From Candidatus Tectimicrobiota bacterium (lineage in GTDB: Bacteria; UBA8248; JACPRG01), in NCBI GenBank assembly GCA_016190025.1, contig JACPRG010000115.1, positions 1-7,539 of the forward strand: DNA of 7,539 nt, read 5' to 3'. Of the stretch, positions 2,293-7,539 are shown piece after piece. Every line of letters begins with the position of its first letter. Position 1 is the stretch's first letter. The position numbers were made by a program, and so were the translations under genes. A model generated the notes under the pieces. That model did not search any database. It saw nothing but the letters and a program-made list of their open reading frames with translations, and was not told the origin of the DNA.

Positions 2293-3336
2293 CTAGAGCG
2301 CGACGACGACCCGGCCGGCGATCTCCCGGTTGAGGAGCCTCCGGTGCACGCCCTCGATTTCCTCCAGGGGGATGACCTCCGTGATGACGGGCTTGATCTT
2401 GCCCTGCCGGACGATCTCCAGCGTCTCCCCCAGTTCCGCCATGTTGACGTAGCGGGAGCCGTGGATCTCCAGCATCTTCCCCAGGACATCGGCGGGGTCC
2501 ACGACAAACTTGGGGCTCTGGCCGAAGACGTGCGCGGGGTGGAACCCGATGATGACCAGCCGTCCCATCTTGCCGAGGCTCGCCACGCAGGCCTCCAGCG
2601 TGACCTTGCTGGCGACGAAGTCAATGGCGCAATCCACCCCTTTTCCGTCGGTGAGGCGGAGGACTTCCTCGGGGATGGACTGCCTGCCGGAGAGGATGGT
2701 CTCGCCGGCCCCGTGCCGGCGCGCGAGCGCGAGCTTTTCCTCGGTGATGTCGGCGGCGATGACGCGCCCGCCGCACAGCTTGGCCATCTGCACGCCGTGG
2801 ATGCCGACGCCCCCGGCCGCTCCGACGATGAGGACGTCGTCCCCCGGGCCGACGCGCCCCTCCTCCCGGCAGGCGTGAAGGGGGGTACAGATGGCGTCCG
2901 CGGCGATGGCGGCGTCCGGGTAGGACACCCCTTCGGGGATCGGGATGAGGTTTCGGGCGGGCAGCGTGACGTATTCCGCGTAGCCCCCGTCGCAGGCCAT
3001 CCCGACGTAGCCCTGCCAGTGGTCGCACAGGGTCTCTTTGCCCATGCGGCAGAACCGGCAGTGCCCGCAGGTGAGATAGAAGTGGCACGTCACGCGGTCA
3101 CCGGGCTTGACGTTCGCGACCCCCTCTCCCACCTCCACCACGTCGCCCGCGATCTCGTGGCCGGGGATGCGGGGGAGCTCCGTGACCAGCTCCGGCGTGG
3201 CCTTCAGGATGGCCACCGTGAGGCCCACGCCCGCGGCCCGCGTCTTGACCAGGGCCTCGCCGATGCCCGGCTTGCGGACCTCCCGCTCTTCCAGGACGAC
3301 GGGCCCGCCGATCTCGTGAAGCACCATGGCCTTCAT
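2293..3336 (-). CDS. Zn-type medium-chain alcohol dehydrogenase, atypical catalytic site
   Basis: This encodes 347 residues, the normal length for the family. The ATG at 3336 starts the canonical MKAMVLHEIGGPVVLEE strand and has a GAGGA 8 nt upstream. Known-family features seen: PGHEIAGDVVEVGEGV (His60-Glu61), structural-zinc cysteines C90, C93, C96 and C104 (CGHCRFC...C), a GAAGGVG nucleotide loop (172-178), and Asp196 after the second Rossmann strand, which favours NAD over NADP. Oddities: the usual first catalytic-zinc Cys (GVCHSD position) is Gly38 in AAGVGLTV, and the third ligand position, by alignment to the CAGxTxYxA segment, is Asp147 (ADAICTPLHA). Catalytic zinc may therefore be absent or differently held. 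It is the first gene of a run with fdrA, 40 nt downstream, and diverges from the cyclase gene. It likely oxidises an alcohol or hydroxyacyl intermediate in the cytoplasm; the substrate is unknown. Confidence 0.9.
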   Translation of the reverse strand: MKAMVLHEIGGPVVLEEREVRKPGIGEALVKTRAAGVGLTVAILKATPELVTELPRIPGHEIAGDVVEVGEGVANVKPGDRVTCHFYLTCGHCRFCRMGKETLCDHWQGYVGMACDGGYAEYVTLPARNLIPIPEGVSYPDAAIAADAICTPLHACREEGRVGPGDDVLIVGAAGGVGIHGVQMAKLCGGRVIAADITEEKLALARRHGAGETILSGRQSIPEEVLRLTDGKGVDCAIDFVASKVTLEACVASLGKMGRLVIIGFHPAHVFGQSPKFVVDPADVLGKMLEIHGSRYVNMAELGETLEIVRQGKIKPVITEVIPLEEIEGVHRRLLNREIAGRVVVAL

Positions 3337-3508
3337 GGAGGATGTCCTCAGTGGCGTTGCGGTGGTGTAAGCTATCGCCGGGCGGATGAAAGCCGCGGGG
3401 GAGATCTTACCAGAGTCCGGGCGAAAATGCCGGGGGCGGGCGCTCGAGCCCGCTTCTTTTTGACCGCCCCATGGCGGGAAGGCGTCCCTTTTGATGCGGA
3501 GGTGAACC
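3337..3508. other. Divergent intergenic region between dehydrogenase and cyclase genes
   Basis: This 172-nt spacer separates two divergent starts, so it must hold at least one promoter for each direction if both runs start here. I see no convincing -35/-10 pair; a weak leftward TAAGAT (complement of 3404-3409) lacks a good -35. The right half holds a terminator-like hairpin (3436-3461) and a second small hairpin, CCGCC-CCAT-GGCGG (3464-3477), just before the cyclase ribosome site. Confidence 0.6.
3436..3461 (+). terminator. Terminator-like hairpin in the cyclase leader (possible attenuator)
   Basis: GCGGGC (3436-3441) pairs with GCCCGC (3448-3453) across a 6-nt loop, followed at once by TTCTTTTT (3454-3461). 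The U-tract is on the rightward strand, 47 nt before the cyclase start. It can therefore act only on RNA heading into that gene or on antisense transcripts. The stem is short and the T-run has one C. Confidence 0.5.
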
Positions 3509-4198
3509 GTGTTCAAGGAGATCATCGACCTCTCCAATGACATCTTCGACGGGATGACCTGCTACGGCAGCCCCAAGACGACGTTCTGGAAGTGGTACTC
3601 CCACGAGGAGACCGCGAAGAAGTTCGGCGGGCGGGTCTCCCTGGAGGGCCACTGCTTTTTCGCCACCGAGCACCTGGGCACCCATCTGGACGCCCCCTAT
3701 CACTTCAACCCCAAGGGGAAGAAGATCGCCGAGATCCCCATCCAGGAGTTCATCCTGCCGGGCCGGGCGGCGGACCTCTCCCACAAAAAGGAGTGGGAGC
3801 CCATCTCCGGCGAAGACCTGGAGGGGGCGTGCCGCAAGGGCGGTTTCCGGGTGAGGCCGGAAGGCGCCCTTTTGGTCTACACGGGCTGGGGGGAGAAGTT
3901 CGACGACCCGGCCAAGGCCGTCCCGCGGCCCTATCTCGACGCGAGCGCGGCCGATTGGGTGCTGGACCGGGGGCTCCGCCTCATCGGCGTCGATCTCGTC
4001 AGCGTCGAGGCCCCGGAGGTCATCCCCGATGACCGCCCGGTCCACAGAAAGATCTGCGGCAGCAACCGGGTGTACATGGTGGAGATGCTCAGAAACGTCG
4101 GGGCGCTCCTCGGCAGGGAGTTCTGGCTCTTCGCCGTCCCCATCAAGATCAAGTACGGCACCGGCGCGCCCTGCCGGGCGTTCGCGGGGATCTTGTAG
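3509..4198 (+). CDS. Cyclase-family metal-dependent hydrolase (kynurenine formamidase-like)
   Basis: This encodes 229 residues, typical of the PF04199 cyclase family. The GTG start is supported by GGAGGT 5 nt upstream (3498-3503), and the protein opens with the family-typical IIDLSNDIFDGM. The signature metal-binding motif HxGTHxDxPxH is present as EHLGTHLDAPYHF (~residues 59-71), supplying the His/Asp ligands. Downstream are YTGWGEKF, LIGVDLVSVEAPEV and the Glu in the VEML segment near the C-terminus. The family hydrolyses amides or cyclic amides and related small molecules (N-formylkynurenine, isatin and others). No signal peptide is seen, so it should be cytoplasmic. The KynB-type tryptophan pathway is not represented nearby, so kynurenine is not implied. 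Divergence from the dehydrogenase/fdrA pair suggests a shared regulator or pathway, which is inference. Confidence 0.9.
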   Translation: MFKEIIDLSNDIFDGMTCYGSPKTTFWKWYSHEETAKKFGGRVSLEGHCFFATEHLGTHLDAPYHFNPKGKKIAEIPIQEFILPGRAADLSHKKEWEPISGEDLEGACRKGGFRVRPEGALLVYTGWGEKFDDPAKAVPRPYLDASAADWVLDRGLRLIGVDLVSVEAPEVIPDDRPVHRKICGSNRVYMVEMLRNVGALLGREFWLFAVPIKIKYGTGAPCRAFAGIL

Positions 4199-4367: not shown

Positions 4368-4838
4368 ATGCCCATCGCGGCGGCTCTCCAGCGGTATCTG
4401 GCCCGGCAAGGGATCGAGTACGAGGCGGTGCCCCATTCCCAGGCCTTTTCCGCCTCGCGGATCGCCCAGGCCAGCCACGTCCCGGGCGACCGCGGCGCCA
4501 AGGCCGTCGTGCTGAAGGGGGAAGGCGGCTACTGCCTGGCGGTCCTTCCCGCCTCTCGCCGTCTCCAAGTGGATGAGCTGCGCGACAGCTACAACCTGCT
4601 CGTGGAGATGGCGACGGAGAAGGAAATCGGCGCACTGTTCCAGGACTGCGAGCTCGGGGCCATCCCCCCCATCGGGGCTGCCTACGGGCTGGAGGCCATC
4701 GTGGATGAAAGCCTTCCCGAGGAGGGGGAGGTTTACTTCGAGGCTGGAGACCACGCCACGCTCCTCCGGGTCGCGGCCGGCGCGTTCCGCAAGCTCATGG
4801 GGGACGTGAAGCGCGGGCGGTTCAGCGCTCGCACCTGA
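4368..4838 (+). CDS. YbaK/EbsC-type aminoacyl-tRNA deacylase
   Basis: This encodes 156 residues, the size of stand-alone YbaK/ProX-type editing proteins (about 150-180). The ATG at 4368 has AGGAG 7 nt upstream, and the protein begins with the usual helix IAAALQRYLARQGIEYEAVPHS. Family signs are AKAVVLK with the conserved Lys (YbaK Lys46 type), DCELGAIPPIG (the GxxxPxG loop) and the C-terminal VYFEAGDHATLLRV. The family hydrolyses mischarged tRNAs, such as Cys- or Ala-tRNA(Pro), in trans in the cytoplasm. Which tRNA this one edits cannot be read from the sequence. It appears to be a housekeeping quality-control gene with no obvious link to its catabolic neighbours. It stops with TGA. Confidence 0.9.
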   Translation: MPIAAALQRYLARQGIEYEAVPHSQAFSASRIAQASHVPGDRGAKAVVLKGEGGYCLAVLPASRRLQVDELRDSYNLLVEMATEKEIGALFQDCELGAIPPIGAAYGLEAIVDESLPEEGEVYFEAGDHATLLRVAAGAFRKLMGDVKRGRFSART

Positions 4839-4923
4839 GCGGCGGTCTCTTTTCCGCGGCTATCGCGCGCCTTTTCGTCTCTCCTCCCTAAGTTCTTGGA
4901 AAAACAGAAAACTTTTAATTTCC

Positions 4924-4935
4924 TGATCTAGATCA
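4924..4935. promoter_or_regulatory. FNR/CRP-family-type operator palindrome with downstream -10
   Basis: TGATCTAGATCA is a perfect 12-bp palindrome with the FNR/ANR/DNR half-site pattern TGAT-N4-ATCA; the outermost T and A of the full TTGAT-N4-ATCAA are changed to C and T. A TAGACT hexamer (4960-4965, 4 of 6 matches to TATAAT) would start RNA near 4971-4972. That puts the palindrome centre about 42 bp upstream, the spacing of a class II activator site. A stretch of A and T runs precedes it. The spacing match strengthens the call, but the regulator is inferred. Confidence 0.45.
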
Positions 4936-5008
4936 TTTTTGCGCGGCGGGCAGGACGGATAGACTGTTTTTATCTCAGCGTCAACATTCGCCTGCTGACC
5001 GGGCGGGA

Positions 5009-5066
5009 GCGAGTCGGCCTTTCGGAGCGGCCCCGAGCGGGTCGCCGGGGAGGAAGGCCGGCTCGC
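5009..5066 (+). promoter_or_regulatory. Long stem-loop in the 5' leader of the racemase-like gene
   Basis: GCGAGTCGGCCTT (5009-5021) pairs with AAGGCCGGCTCGC (5054-5066) over 13 bp with one G-U wobble, enclosing a 32-nt loop. Within that loop CCCCG (5031-5035) can pair with CGGGG (5046-5050). It lies downstream of the putative promoter and 55 nt before the ribosome site. It could be a structured leader RNA or a dispersed palindrome; no known riboswitch class is recognised. Confidence 0.5.
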
Positions 5067-5133
5067 GGCGATGCTCCCTTTTTCCCGAACCGCCGTCTAT
5101 CGAGGGATCCGCTTGAGGCAAAGGAGGCAGGAG

Positions 5134-5874
5134 ATGTTCGGAGAGCGAGGAATCATCGGGTTCATCAGCCCCACGATCCTGACCAACCAGGTGTTGGACT
5201 TTTACCAGATCGCCCCGGAGGGGGTGAACCTGGCCAGCACCACCCTGGGGGTGGAGAACACGGTCTTCGAGGAGCTGTGCCACAACCGCGAGGGCGTGCT
5301 GGAGGCGGCACGGAAGCTGGAGCGGGCCGGCGCCCAGGTCGTCGTGGCCGGCGGGTGAGCGGTCATCTGGACCGCCGGGAGCGGTGCGGACCTGAGCATC
5401 ATCGACGACATCCAGCGCGCCACGGGCCTCCCCGCCACGACCAACGTGACGGCGGCCATCCGGGCGCTCCGGCGGCTGGGCGTGAAGAAGCTGGCCGTGG
5501 CCATGGGCTTCACGGTCCCCGCTCGGGACTCCGCCGTCGAGCCCCACGAGATCCACAAGCAGTTCCTCCGGGACAACGGGTTCGAGCTGGTGAGCTACGA
5601 GATCCTGCCCCACTCGCGGATGTACGACGTCCTGCGGCTGCCGTCCGAGACGGCCGCGCGCCTGGCGCGGGAGGCGTACCGGAAAGCGCCGGCGGCCGAC
5701 GGGATCTACATCACCTGCGGGCGGCTCGACACCCTGCCCGTCATCGGCCCCCTGGAGGACGAGCTGGGGGTCCCGGTGGTCACGGCCAACCAGGCCTGGA
5801 CCTGGGAGACGCTGAGGACGCTTGGCGTCCGGGAGTCCATCCCGGGCTTCGGGCGGCTGTTGGAGACGGCGTGA
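5134..5874 (+). CDS. Arylmalonate decarboxylase/Asp-Glu racemase-like protein with in-frame UGA at codon 75
   Basis: The ATG at 5134 has AAGGAGG 6 nt upstream (5121-5127). Reading through UGA (5356-5358) gives 246 residues, near the ~240 of arylmalonate decarboxylase. Before the UGA are IIGFISPT and GAQVVVAGG. After it, in the same frame, are GSGADLSIIDDIQRATGLPATTNVTAAIRALRRLGVKKLAV, the second catalytic Cys in YITCGRLDT (Cys195, matching AMDase Cys188) and PGFGRLLE. The UGA lies in the first catalytic loop. Ungapped alignment puts it at AMDase Thr75, beside Gly74, the site of the racemase Cys; one residue of shift would put it on that Cys. The family uses Cys to racemise, isomerise or decarboxylate carboxylic acids. 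The protein may be a selenoprotein, a fresh pseudogene, or an artefact of a base error. Nothing else is disrupted, and the binding-protein gene follows after 24 nt. Confidence 0.8.
5359..5392 (+). promoter_or_regulatory. SECIS-like stem-loop directly after the in-frame UGA
   Basis: ACCGC (5371-5375) and GCGGT (5381-5385) form an upper stem with apical loop CGGGA, which starts 18 nt after the UGA. GGTC (5361-5364) and GACC (5389-5392) can form a lower stem. Bacterial SECIS elements need a short stem-loop at about this distance with a G in the first two loop bases. The E. coli fdhF loop, as I recall it, starts at the same offset with AGG. A competing hairpin, GCGGTC-ATCTG-GACCGC (5359-5375), is equally perfect, and the fdhF bulged U is absent, so the assignment is tentative. 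Confidence 0.4.
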
Positions 5875-5898
5875 AGGCTCAGTAGGGAGGAAGGGGCG

Positions 5899-6918
5899 AT
5901 GAAAGGATGGGTCAGGTTTCTGCTGTTGTTGGCGGTCTTTTGGGCGCTCGCGGCCGCCCCGGAGGCGCCGGCCCAGACCAAGGTCACCTTCGGGATGGAC
6001 TACATCATCTACGGCAAGCACGCCGGGTTCTACGCGGCGCTCGACCGCGGCTTTTACCGCGACGCGGGCCTGGACACGGCCATCCTTCGCGGATACGGCT
6101 CGGGCGACACGGTCAAGAAGGTCCACACGAGGGTCGTGGATTTCGGGTTCGCCGACAGCGGGTCGGTGATCGTGGGGCGCACGAAGGGCACCCAGGTCCG
6201 CCTCATCGGCATGATCCACGACAAGTCGATGTTCGCCATCGTATCCCTGAAATCCACGGGGATCCGGACCCCCAAGGACCTGGAGGGAAAGGCCATCGGG
6301 GGGCCCGCGGGAAGCTCCACGTGGCTCATCTTCCCCGCCTTTGCGAAGCTGAACGGCGTGGACGAAAGCAAGGTGAAATATCTGCCCATGCCCGACGCCG
6401 CCAAGACCGCCAGCATCCTGGCCGGCAAGATCGACGGCGCCCCGTACTACATCACCGAGCTCCCCACGGCGAAGGCCCTGGCGACGAAGCAGGGAAAGGA
6501 GCTCTCGGCCCTGCTCTACGCCGACTGGGGGGTCGACATTTACAGCAACGGCCTCATCGCGCCGGACGCCACGATCAAAGGCAAGCCCGATCTCGTCCGG
6601 GGCTTCACCGCGGCCACGATGAAGGGCATGGCCTGGGCGATAGAGAACCCGGACGCCGCGGTGGACATCCTGCTCCGCCACTACCCGGCCATCCAGAAGG
6701 ACCTCGCCCGCGCCCACTGGGGCATCGCGGCGGAGTACCTCTTGACCCCGACGGCCAAAAAGCACGGGATCGGGTACATGGGCCGGGAGAAGATGGCGGA
6801 GACCGTCCGGCTGATCTCGACGTACATGGGCCTGAAGTCCGCGCCCCCCTTGGGTGAGGTGTACACCAACGAGTTCCTGCCGAAGCTCTTCCCCAAGTGG
6901 AAGGGAGGGGGCGCCTGA
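5899..6918 (+). CDS. NMT1/THI5-like ABC transporter substrate-binding protein
   Basis: This encodes 339 residues. The ATG at 5899 has GGAGG 8 nt upstream. Residues 1-26 form a signal peptide: MKGWVR, a Leu/Ala/Phe core, and a cleavage-like APA-Q. The mature part opens with KVTFGMDYIIYGKHAGFYAALDRGFYRDAGLD, the classic start of NMT1/SsuA/TauA-type binding proteins, followed by GYGSGDTVKKV, DFGFADSGSVIVGR and GIRTPKDLEGKAIGGPAGSSTW, which are the ligand-cleft loops. Family members deliver sulfonates, pyrimidine precursors, aromatic acids or similar small molecules to an ABC importer from the periplasm. No permease or ATPase is visible in the window. It lies 24 nt after the UGA-containing enzyme gene, probably in one transcript, and before a related enzyme gene, so its ligand is plausibly their substrate. 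That last point is inference. It stops with TGA. Confidence 0.9.
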   Translation: MKGWVRFLLLLAVFWALAAAPEAPAQTKVTFGMDYIIYGKHAGFYAALDRGFYRDAGLDTAILRGYGSGDTVKKVHTRVVDFGFADSGSVIVGRTKGTQVRLIGMIHDKSMFAIVSLKSTGIRTPKDLEGKAIGGPAGSSTWLIFPAFAKLNGVDESKVKYLPMPDAAKTASILAGKIDGAPYYITELPTAKALATKQGKELSALLYADWGVDIYSNGLIAPDATIKGKPDLVRGFTAATMKGMAWAIENPDAAVDILLRHYPAIQKDLARAHWGIAAEYLLTPTAKKHGIGYMGREKMAETVRLISTYMGLKSAPPLGEVYTNEFLPKLFPKWKGGGA

Positions 6919-7187: not shown

Positions 7188-7539
7188 ATGTATGGATGGC
7201 GGGCATTGATCGGTCTCATCGAGCCGACGGGGGGCCCCATGTTGCAGGCGGAGGTCAGGAGTGCGGCGCCCGAGGGGGTCTCCTTCGTAGGGAGTCGGAT
7301 GTACATCGAGACCGTCGACCTGAAAGGTATCGAGGGGATGGTGCAGCATGTGGAACGGTGCGGTCGGGACTTGGCCATCATGAAGGCGGACTGCGCGGTC
7401 CTTTGCGGGACGCCGGCGGGGTTTTTCAGGGGACACGCCGGCAACCGGGAAGTGACGGAGCGCCTTCGAGGCGCCTCGGGGCTTTCCTGCATGACACAGA
7501 TCTCGGCCGTCGTGGAGGGCCTGCGCCGGCTGAATTGCC
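7188..7539 (+). CDS. Second arylmalonate decarboxylase/maleate isomerase-family protein (3' partial)
   Basis: The frame runs from an ATG at 7188, with GGAGGG (7175-7180) 7 nt upstream, through 117 codons to the window end without a stop. The start reads WRALIGLIEPTGGPM, the usual first strand of this superfamily. The first catalytic loop is VLCGTPAGFFRG, then ERLRGASGLSCMTQISAVVEGLRRL, closely paralleling AMDase (MGTSLSFYRG ... ATGLPCTT). Gly74-Thr75 match the AMDase numbering exactly, with a Cys at 73. The lack of Cys at 74 favours a decarboxylase-like over a racemase-like first half-site, but the second Cys region lies beyond the window. It is a divergent paralogue of the UGA-interrupted gene 1.3 kb upstream, and the two flank the binding-protein gene. 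The product is cytoplasmic; the substrate is unknown. Confidence 0.85.
   Translation, partial: MYGWRALIGLIEPTGGPMLQAEVRSAAPEGVSFVGSRMYIETVDLKGIEGMVQHVERCGRDLAIMKADCAVLCGTPAGFFRGHAGNREVTERLRGASGLSCMTQISAVVEGLRRLNC

Follow-up and report, generated by a model that had tools for sequence, protein, structure and literature searches.

The closest described relatives of the gene considered here are arylmalonate decarboxylase (AMDase) and the racemases of the Asp/Glu racemase superfamily. According to passages of PMC4996985 and PMC12576825, AMDase holds Thr75 and Ser76 in its oxyanion hole, has a glycine (Gly74) where the racemases have their second cysteine, and protonates its enediolate with Cys188. 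Selenocysteine (Sec), for its part, nearly always occupies sites at which homologues carry cysteine (excerpts of PMC12013277), and selenoproteins are mostly thought to be redox proteins (parts of PMC13188914). We analysed contig JACPRG010000115.1, a stretch of 7539 bases with 69% GC (hereafter the window), in which an AMDase-like gene at 5134-5874 on the forward strand is interrupted by an in-frame UGA. Judged from its sequence, the likely product of this gene is a selenoprotein belonging to the AMDase / Asp-Glu racemase superfamily, with the role proposed below; this is the best explanation overall.

The interrupted frame and its close relatives

Starting from ATG 5134, which is preceded by a Shine-Dalgarno-like AGGAGG (5122-5127, forward strand), the frame runs through 74 sense codons, a single UGA at codon 75 (5356-5358) and 171 further sense codons to a TGA at 5872-5874, giving a product of 246 residues if the UGA is read through. 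A sequence-only reading of the window had proposed a selenocysteine enzyme and had described the frame as intact on both sides of the UGA, with no frameshift. This holds, since the Pfam model Amdase (PF17645) aligns through codon 75 (residues 22-243, 5.6e-35, 121.5 bits, gathering threshold 25.9), and Asp_Glu_race (PF01177) also spans it (residues 54-225, 33.0 bits, gathering 31). The open reading frame (ORF) has its in-frame UGA within a conserved domain, which is a criterion for bacterial selenoproteins, and the structure predicted for the readthrough protein has a pLDDT of 88.1 and a pTM of 0.89. When the protein was compared with AMDase by phmmer, the loop around the UGA (AGGUAVIW) aligned without gaps, with Gly74 on Gly74, U75 on Thr75 and Cys195 (codon 5716-5718), in the second active-site loop, on Cys188. 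The UGA had been placed in the first active-site loop, with Cys195 in the second, and with the caveat that it falls one residue past the cysteine site of the racemases, at the threonine; the phmmer alignment agrees on all of this.

When the readthrough protein was searched in 5.8 billion proteins, 7620 candidates yielded 45 proteins at E 1e-10. The best two, P0002 (97% identical) and P0003 (85%), are pieces of 142 residues that start at a GTG matching the one at 5446, and none of the remaining 43 is more than 37% identical to the query. A query made of the first 74 residues recovered two proteins, P0047 (99%) and P0048 (82%), each exactly 74 residues long. Both pairs (P0047/P0002 and P0048/P0003) lie on other contigs than the window and break at codon 75; pieces of 74 and 142 residues mean that the frame of these relatives stops at that same codon. 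A contig edge is an unlikely cause of the P0047/P0002 break, because both are on contigs of length 4874; for P0048 and P0003, whose contigs differ (4758 and 3993), a common organism of origin is our assumption. A sequencing or assembly error at 5356-5358 would suit an anomaly seen on a single contig, but since two sets of relatives on contigs of their own (97-99% and 82-85% identical) imply the same stop, we give it next to no credence. Judging by these sequences, the UGA at codon 75 goes beyond coincidence or a single miscalled base.

A stop common to relatives is also what descent would give from a relic gene, in which an ancestral nonsense mutation was inherited and the pieces are decaying or are retained for some other reason. 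The lack of further stops is unremarkable on this account: in simulated neutral change, which contained no insertions or deletions, the probability of meeting no further stop at this divergence was 0.65 and 0.51, and the observation is not telling. However, the same simulation found the changes in both halves to be milder than neutral (13 of 74 residues changed in P0048, P 0.004; 21 of 142 in P0003, P 0.034), the piece lengths of 74 and 142 are the same in the relatives 82-85% identical, and a ribosome-binding site and codon structure are present. Both halves of the gene look selected at the sequence level, and we hold a relic to be improbable.

The relatives are predicted as exactly these two pieces, as they would be if the UGA were a true stop, a separate protein began at GTG 5446 and the two assembled into one enzyme. 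Yet no Shine-Dalgarno sequence was found within 25 bases upstream of 5446, the break would lie within the active-site loop, and codons 76-104 (5359-5445), translated only on readthrough of the UGA, would then go untranslated. Across 49 distinct matches spanning 200 or more of the query, codons 76-104 are identical at 481 of 1384 aligned positions (34.8%), compared with 1012 of 3412 in codons 1-74 (29.7%) and 2341 of 6276 in codons 105-246 (37.3%). That a segment skipped by both pieces is conserved like its flanks argues for translation through the UGA and against a split gene, in which we place very little confidence.

The UGA could also be read as another residue (Trp, Gly or Cys), by a suppressor or under a changed code, and such a residue may be tolerated, seeing that Gly (codon GGG) stands at 75 in the most similar genome relatives. 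But UGA terminates three other genes of the window, those of the YbaK-like, binding and FdrA-like proteins, which makes general reassignment unlikely, and we find hardly any reason to believe in another residue. The shared stop and the conserved codons 76-104 together make error, decay and a split gene unlikely and leave selenocysteine as the best reading; its insertion at UGA codon 75 seems to us quite likely.

Residue 75, candidate hairpin and host

Position 75 is held by threonine in 63 of 92 aligned homologues, and by Ala in 10, Val in 8, Asp in 3, Ser in 3, Gly in 2, Met in 2 and Ile in 1. At locus L141 a gapped tblastn row put a cysteine at 75, but the MAFFT alignment moves that residue to 74. 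A tree was built from 93 rows, comprising the window protein, the members of P0004-P0046 that reach 200 residues or more, and tblastn matches whose query end minus start was at least 180; repeats (L134 is a repeat of L121) and the pieces P0002, P0003, P0047 and P0048 were left out. The window row stands on a long branch and its placement is unsure. Its sisters (support 97/95) are the Gly75 rows L121 and L130, both from genome G291 (sampled from the phylum to which a Chloroflexi record belongs), and three Asp75 rows, namely the second gene of L121, P0022 and P0030. All five sister rows retain the second-loop cysteine, and the clade holding them and the window is a group of 31 rows, all with Gly74. 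The loop-1 cysteine is absent, on these rows, from the window's clade, and the next residue is variable, including Asp, Ser and here, presumably, Sec.

An AMDase-like subfamily (P0022, P0030 and L121 672-1397) is worth recording in its own right: it has Asp at the Thr75 position, keeps the second-loop cysteine and groups near the window protein. Two differing AMDase-like genes are adjacent in L121 (G291) and in L124 (G293), and one of these pairs mixes the Gly75 and Asp75 types.

With respect to the sequence-only reading, the selenoprotein of the Asp/Glu racemase superfamily remains the best explanation, since the stop is common to relatives 82-99% identical and Cys195, which the sister rows retain, corresponds to AMDase Cys188; the idea that Sec replaces a catalytic cysteine finds no support, because the site is that of the oxyanion-hole Thr75, where no aligned homologue has cysteine. 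Homologues with only Thr, Ala, Ser and the like at this position had been named as grounds for abandoning the proposal. Such residues are indeed what is found at about 41% identity or less, but in the closest relatives the frame stops there.

Searches for UGA-containing homologues gave matches in 9 of 12, 16 of 18, 35 of 95, 1 of 7, 0 of 4, 49 of 400, 6 of 16, 1 of 398 and 3 of 29 genomes. The E limit varied by search, genomes recur between sets (all of the 16-genome set lies within the 400-genome set), at most six first-look candidates were scored per genome in the 400- and 398-genome searches, and the sets included no phylum-level sample of Desulfobacterota, Actinomycetota, Bacillota or Myxococcota. 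One TGA was listed, in genome G090, and proved to be that gene's own end rather than internal; one TAG lies within a match of 24% identity. Scanning genome contigs with the readthrough protein (P0001) gave 44 pattern matches and scanning viral contigs with A2 gave 76, with no relative among either, and the 411 records from a plasmid collection were every one less than 60% identical.

Downstream of the UGA, a candidate bacterial selenocysteine insertion sequence (SECIS) hairpin occupies 5366-5390 on the forward strand, with nine pairs, one mismatch and a five-nucleotide apical loop (CGGGA, 5376-5380) at nucleotides 21-25, taking the U of the UGA as nucleotide 1. On its own it folds with -13.4 kcal/mol, and its pair probability falls from about 0.9 in 45 nt to 0.47 in 65 nt and 0.35 in 80 nt. 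The UGSC selenoprotein genes that we folded, all from one homologous family, have a five-base loop at nucleotides 22-26 in 8 of 8 cases, one nucleotide off the present one. The bSECIS limits used in the hairpin scans were our own choice, and Rfam gave no match in the window up to E 10. The hairpin counts as no more than compatible with Sec; it is weak evidence and we do not use it as main evidence.

A Sec-using host for the window is plausible on this analysis. The best named relative of the window's dehydrogenase, 86% identical, is labelled as a Nitrospinota metagenome-assembled genome, and from sequence the Tectomicrobia/Nitrospinota phylum is a possible home of the window, whose phylum is uncertain. 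In that phylum SelB was above the cut-off in 14 of 18 genomes (controls 2 of 14), and tRNA-Sec was above gathering in 16 of 18, with best scores of 72-76 bits; this last threshold is loose, because 5 of 14 controls also pass. A separate observation concerns the UGSC genes, which were above the cut-off in 18 of 18 genomes of the phylum (two to eight matches each) and in 0 of 14 controls, and which have one internal TGA in 89 of 90 matches. The UGSC motif was present in 8 of 8 loci read in this phylum, that of genome G006 (L147-L154 hold examples), a selenoprotein-rich group.

Several of our results weigh against selenocysteine at codon 75. Almost all selenoproteins have cysteine homologues, as stated in a portion of PMC12013277, and cysteine was found at position 75 in none of the 92 aligned homologues. 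There was no internal TGA at codon 75 among the matches listed in any genome search, these being homologues of about 41% identity or less. The close relatives were read as proteins only, so that their stop is implied and its identity as UGA inferred. A stem of at least five pairs of the same general kind as the hairpin occurs at 584 of 1072 background codons, with a loop of this register at 89 and one as stable at 20, and shuffled sequences folded at least as well in 21 of 200 cases in 45 nt and in 174 of 200 in 65 nt. Finally, the SelB and tRNA-Sec counts come from a phylum whose link to the window is weak: dehydrogenase matches in Tectomicrobia/Nitrospinota genomes reach 38-45% over most of the length, and those in Rokubacteria, at 57-62%, are at the top of the best 80 of 158 relatives (GTDB r220 genomes scanned).

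Proposed role and gene neighbourhood

In the mechanism that we propose, UGA 75 would be decoded as Sec, and the codon of the close relatives would likewise be UGA and their residue Sec. Sec75 would sit at the start of the helix that follows the third strand, in the loop of the AMDase oxyanion hole and across from Cys195; approaching from the face opposite to that cysteine, it would probably act as a second nucleophile or acid/base group. The reaction may be of the isomerase, racemase or decarboxylase type and may proceed through an enediolate or a covalent adduct, and the enzyme would probably be cytoplasmic, acting on a small carboxylate imported by the transport system of the binding protein encoded by the next gene. 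Given Sec, we lean slightly towards an acid/base or nucleophilic residue rather than a redox one. That Sec was recruited at a position that is never cysteine in the homologues seen, as a catalytic acid/base or nucleophile paired with the old proton-donor cysteine, is put forward tentatively, and with some doubt.

The two residues could instead make a redox selenoenzyme, with the AMDase fold reused for a reductase: Sec75 and Cys195 would form a selenenyl-sulfide, or Sec75 would attack the substrate carbon reductively, the way Sec-dependent glycine and D-proline reductases have been suggested to act. Sec75 and Cys195 do align with residues of both AMDase active-site loops, a redox function is assumed for most Sec proteins that are uncharacterised, and the Sec enzymes GrdB and D-proline reductase take part in the reductive cleavage of amino acids (both statements from passages of PMC13188914). 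However, neither a UxxC nor a CxxU motif surrounds Sec75 (G-G-U-A-V-I), an electron-transfer partner is absent among the window genes scanned, and sister rows with Asp or Gly at 75, which are non-redox residues, keep the same second-loop cysteine. We regard the redox alternative as unlikely.

An NMT1/SsuA-type substrate-binding protein (5899-6918, forward strand; Pfam NMT1 1.9e-48; TIGR01728 2.7e-16, under its cut-off) begins 24 bases 3′ of the gene at 5134-5874 and, from this spacing, probably belongs to the same operon. In genome G243, from the same sampled phylum as G291, the gene after a related Ser75 AMDase-like gene likewise codes for an NMT1-type binding protein; a scan of ten ORFs on two short contigs of G291 revealed no such protein. 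A second, paralogous AMDase-like gene (7188-7539, forward strand; Pfam Amdase 4.2e-13 on the frame from 7173) is cut by the contig end. Its first loop reads C-G-T-P, with no Sec; the sequence-only reading had noted Thr at this position in the neighbouring paralogue. The two AMDase-like genes of the window are likely in one operon, and the context is most simply read as that of a catabolic enzyme coupled to uptake.

Upstream, the window contains an OmpA-like end (2-685, forward), an FdrA-type acyl-CoA synthetase (672-2252, reverse; NCBIfam 493.5 bits, cut-off 433), a zinc alcohol dehydrogenase (2293-3339, reverse), a putative cyclase (3509-4198, forward) and a YbaK-like editing domain (4368-4838, forward). 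The FdrA-type gene near the cyclase and AMDase-like genes may point to catabolism of a ring- or ureide-like compound, although this is speculative. About 200 bases before the gene, in an AT-rich stretch, lies the perfect palindrome TGATCTAGATCA (TGAT-N4-ATCA; 4924-4935, forward strand), which matches once in the window with 0.03 expected and was found in 6 of 200 shuffles; its spacing is, we presume, like that of FNR/CRP-type sites. An inverted repeat of 13 nt arms, 92% complementary and 32 nt apart, lies at 5009-5066 between the palindrome and the gene start. A scan of 4820-5940 for a sigma-70-like promoter or a terminator found none.

Comparison with known systems

Table 1 of a 2026 inventory (PMC13188914) gives 119 selenoprotein families, with no Asp/Glu racemase or AMDase family among the entries of that table. 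In the open-licence PMC literature, no paper was found that joins selenoprotein with arylmalonate decarboxylase and none that joins selenocysteine with 'asp glu racemase', a search form that may miss the usual slash. A paper found with selenocysteine and 'glu racemase' (PMC6015842) is unrelated in the passages concerned, and one found with selenocysteine and racemase (PMC7435645) concerns lactate racemase. New here would be a selenoprotein in a superfamily outside that inventory, at a site without cysteine homologues. If this is true, Sec stands at a former Thr/Ser/Asp/Gly site in a cofactor-free decarboxylase/racemase fold, was gained without a cysteine counterpart there, and is possibly used for acid/base or nucleophilic chemistry. 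Searches for Cys/UGA pairs would miss such a case, so other families of this kind may hide as broken genes. AMDases attract interest as biocatalysts in the preparation of chiral acids, so a naturally occurring Sec form would lend itself to assays.

Compared with AMDase itself (PF17645; PDB 3dg9, 3ixl), the window protein matches both Gly74 and Cys188 (aligned with Gly74 and Cys195) but has Sec75-Ala76 in place of Thr75-Ser76, and the AMDase motif LMGTSLSF given in passages of PMC4996985 is absent. We do not count it as a true AMDase (EC 4.1.1.76), which by the same passages has both T75-S76 and that motif. It scores 116.7 bits with the NCBIfam AMDase model NF052327, under the cut-off of 225. 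In maleate cis-trans isomerase (PDB 2xed, 4fq5), the succinylcysteine named in the entry title of 2xed is reportedly that of the loop-1 cysteine; the window protein has Gly74 and Sec75 in this loop. The amino-acid and hydantoin racemases of PF01177 belong to the same superfamily as the window protein and have their second active-site cysteine at position 74 (passages of PMC4996985), where the window protein has Gly, with Sec one residue on. The window protein thus does not show the pattern of a two-cysteine racemase or maleate isomerase, in which each loop contributes a cysteine (positions 74 and 188 of AMDase).

Among known selenoproteins, GrdB and PrdB (PF07355, TIGR04483) are likened to the window protein as Sec enzymes acting on small amino acids (parts of PMC13188914); it is not a member of their family, as UxxC is absent and P0001 has no match to PF07355 or TIGR04483. 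UGSC selenoproteins (NF041046, PF24696) were considered as hidden homologues and rejected on sequence, with no NF041046 match at E 0.1, an hhalign probability of 0.3% and no UGSC motif; the UGSC model matches varied alpha/beta folds, and no Asp/Glu racemase is among the best 50 rows listed in either search. The UGSC family is nevertheless abundant in a phylum possibly related to that of the window, and in its predicted alpha/beta model Sec likewise lies after a strand and before a helix.
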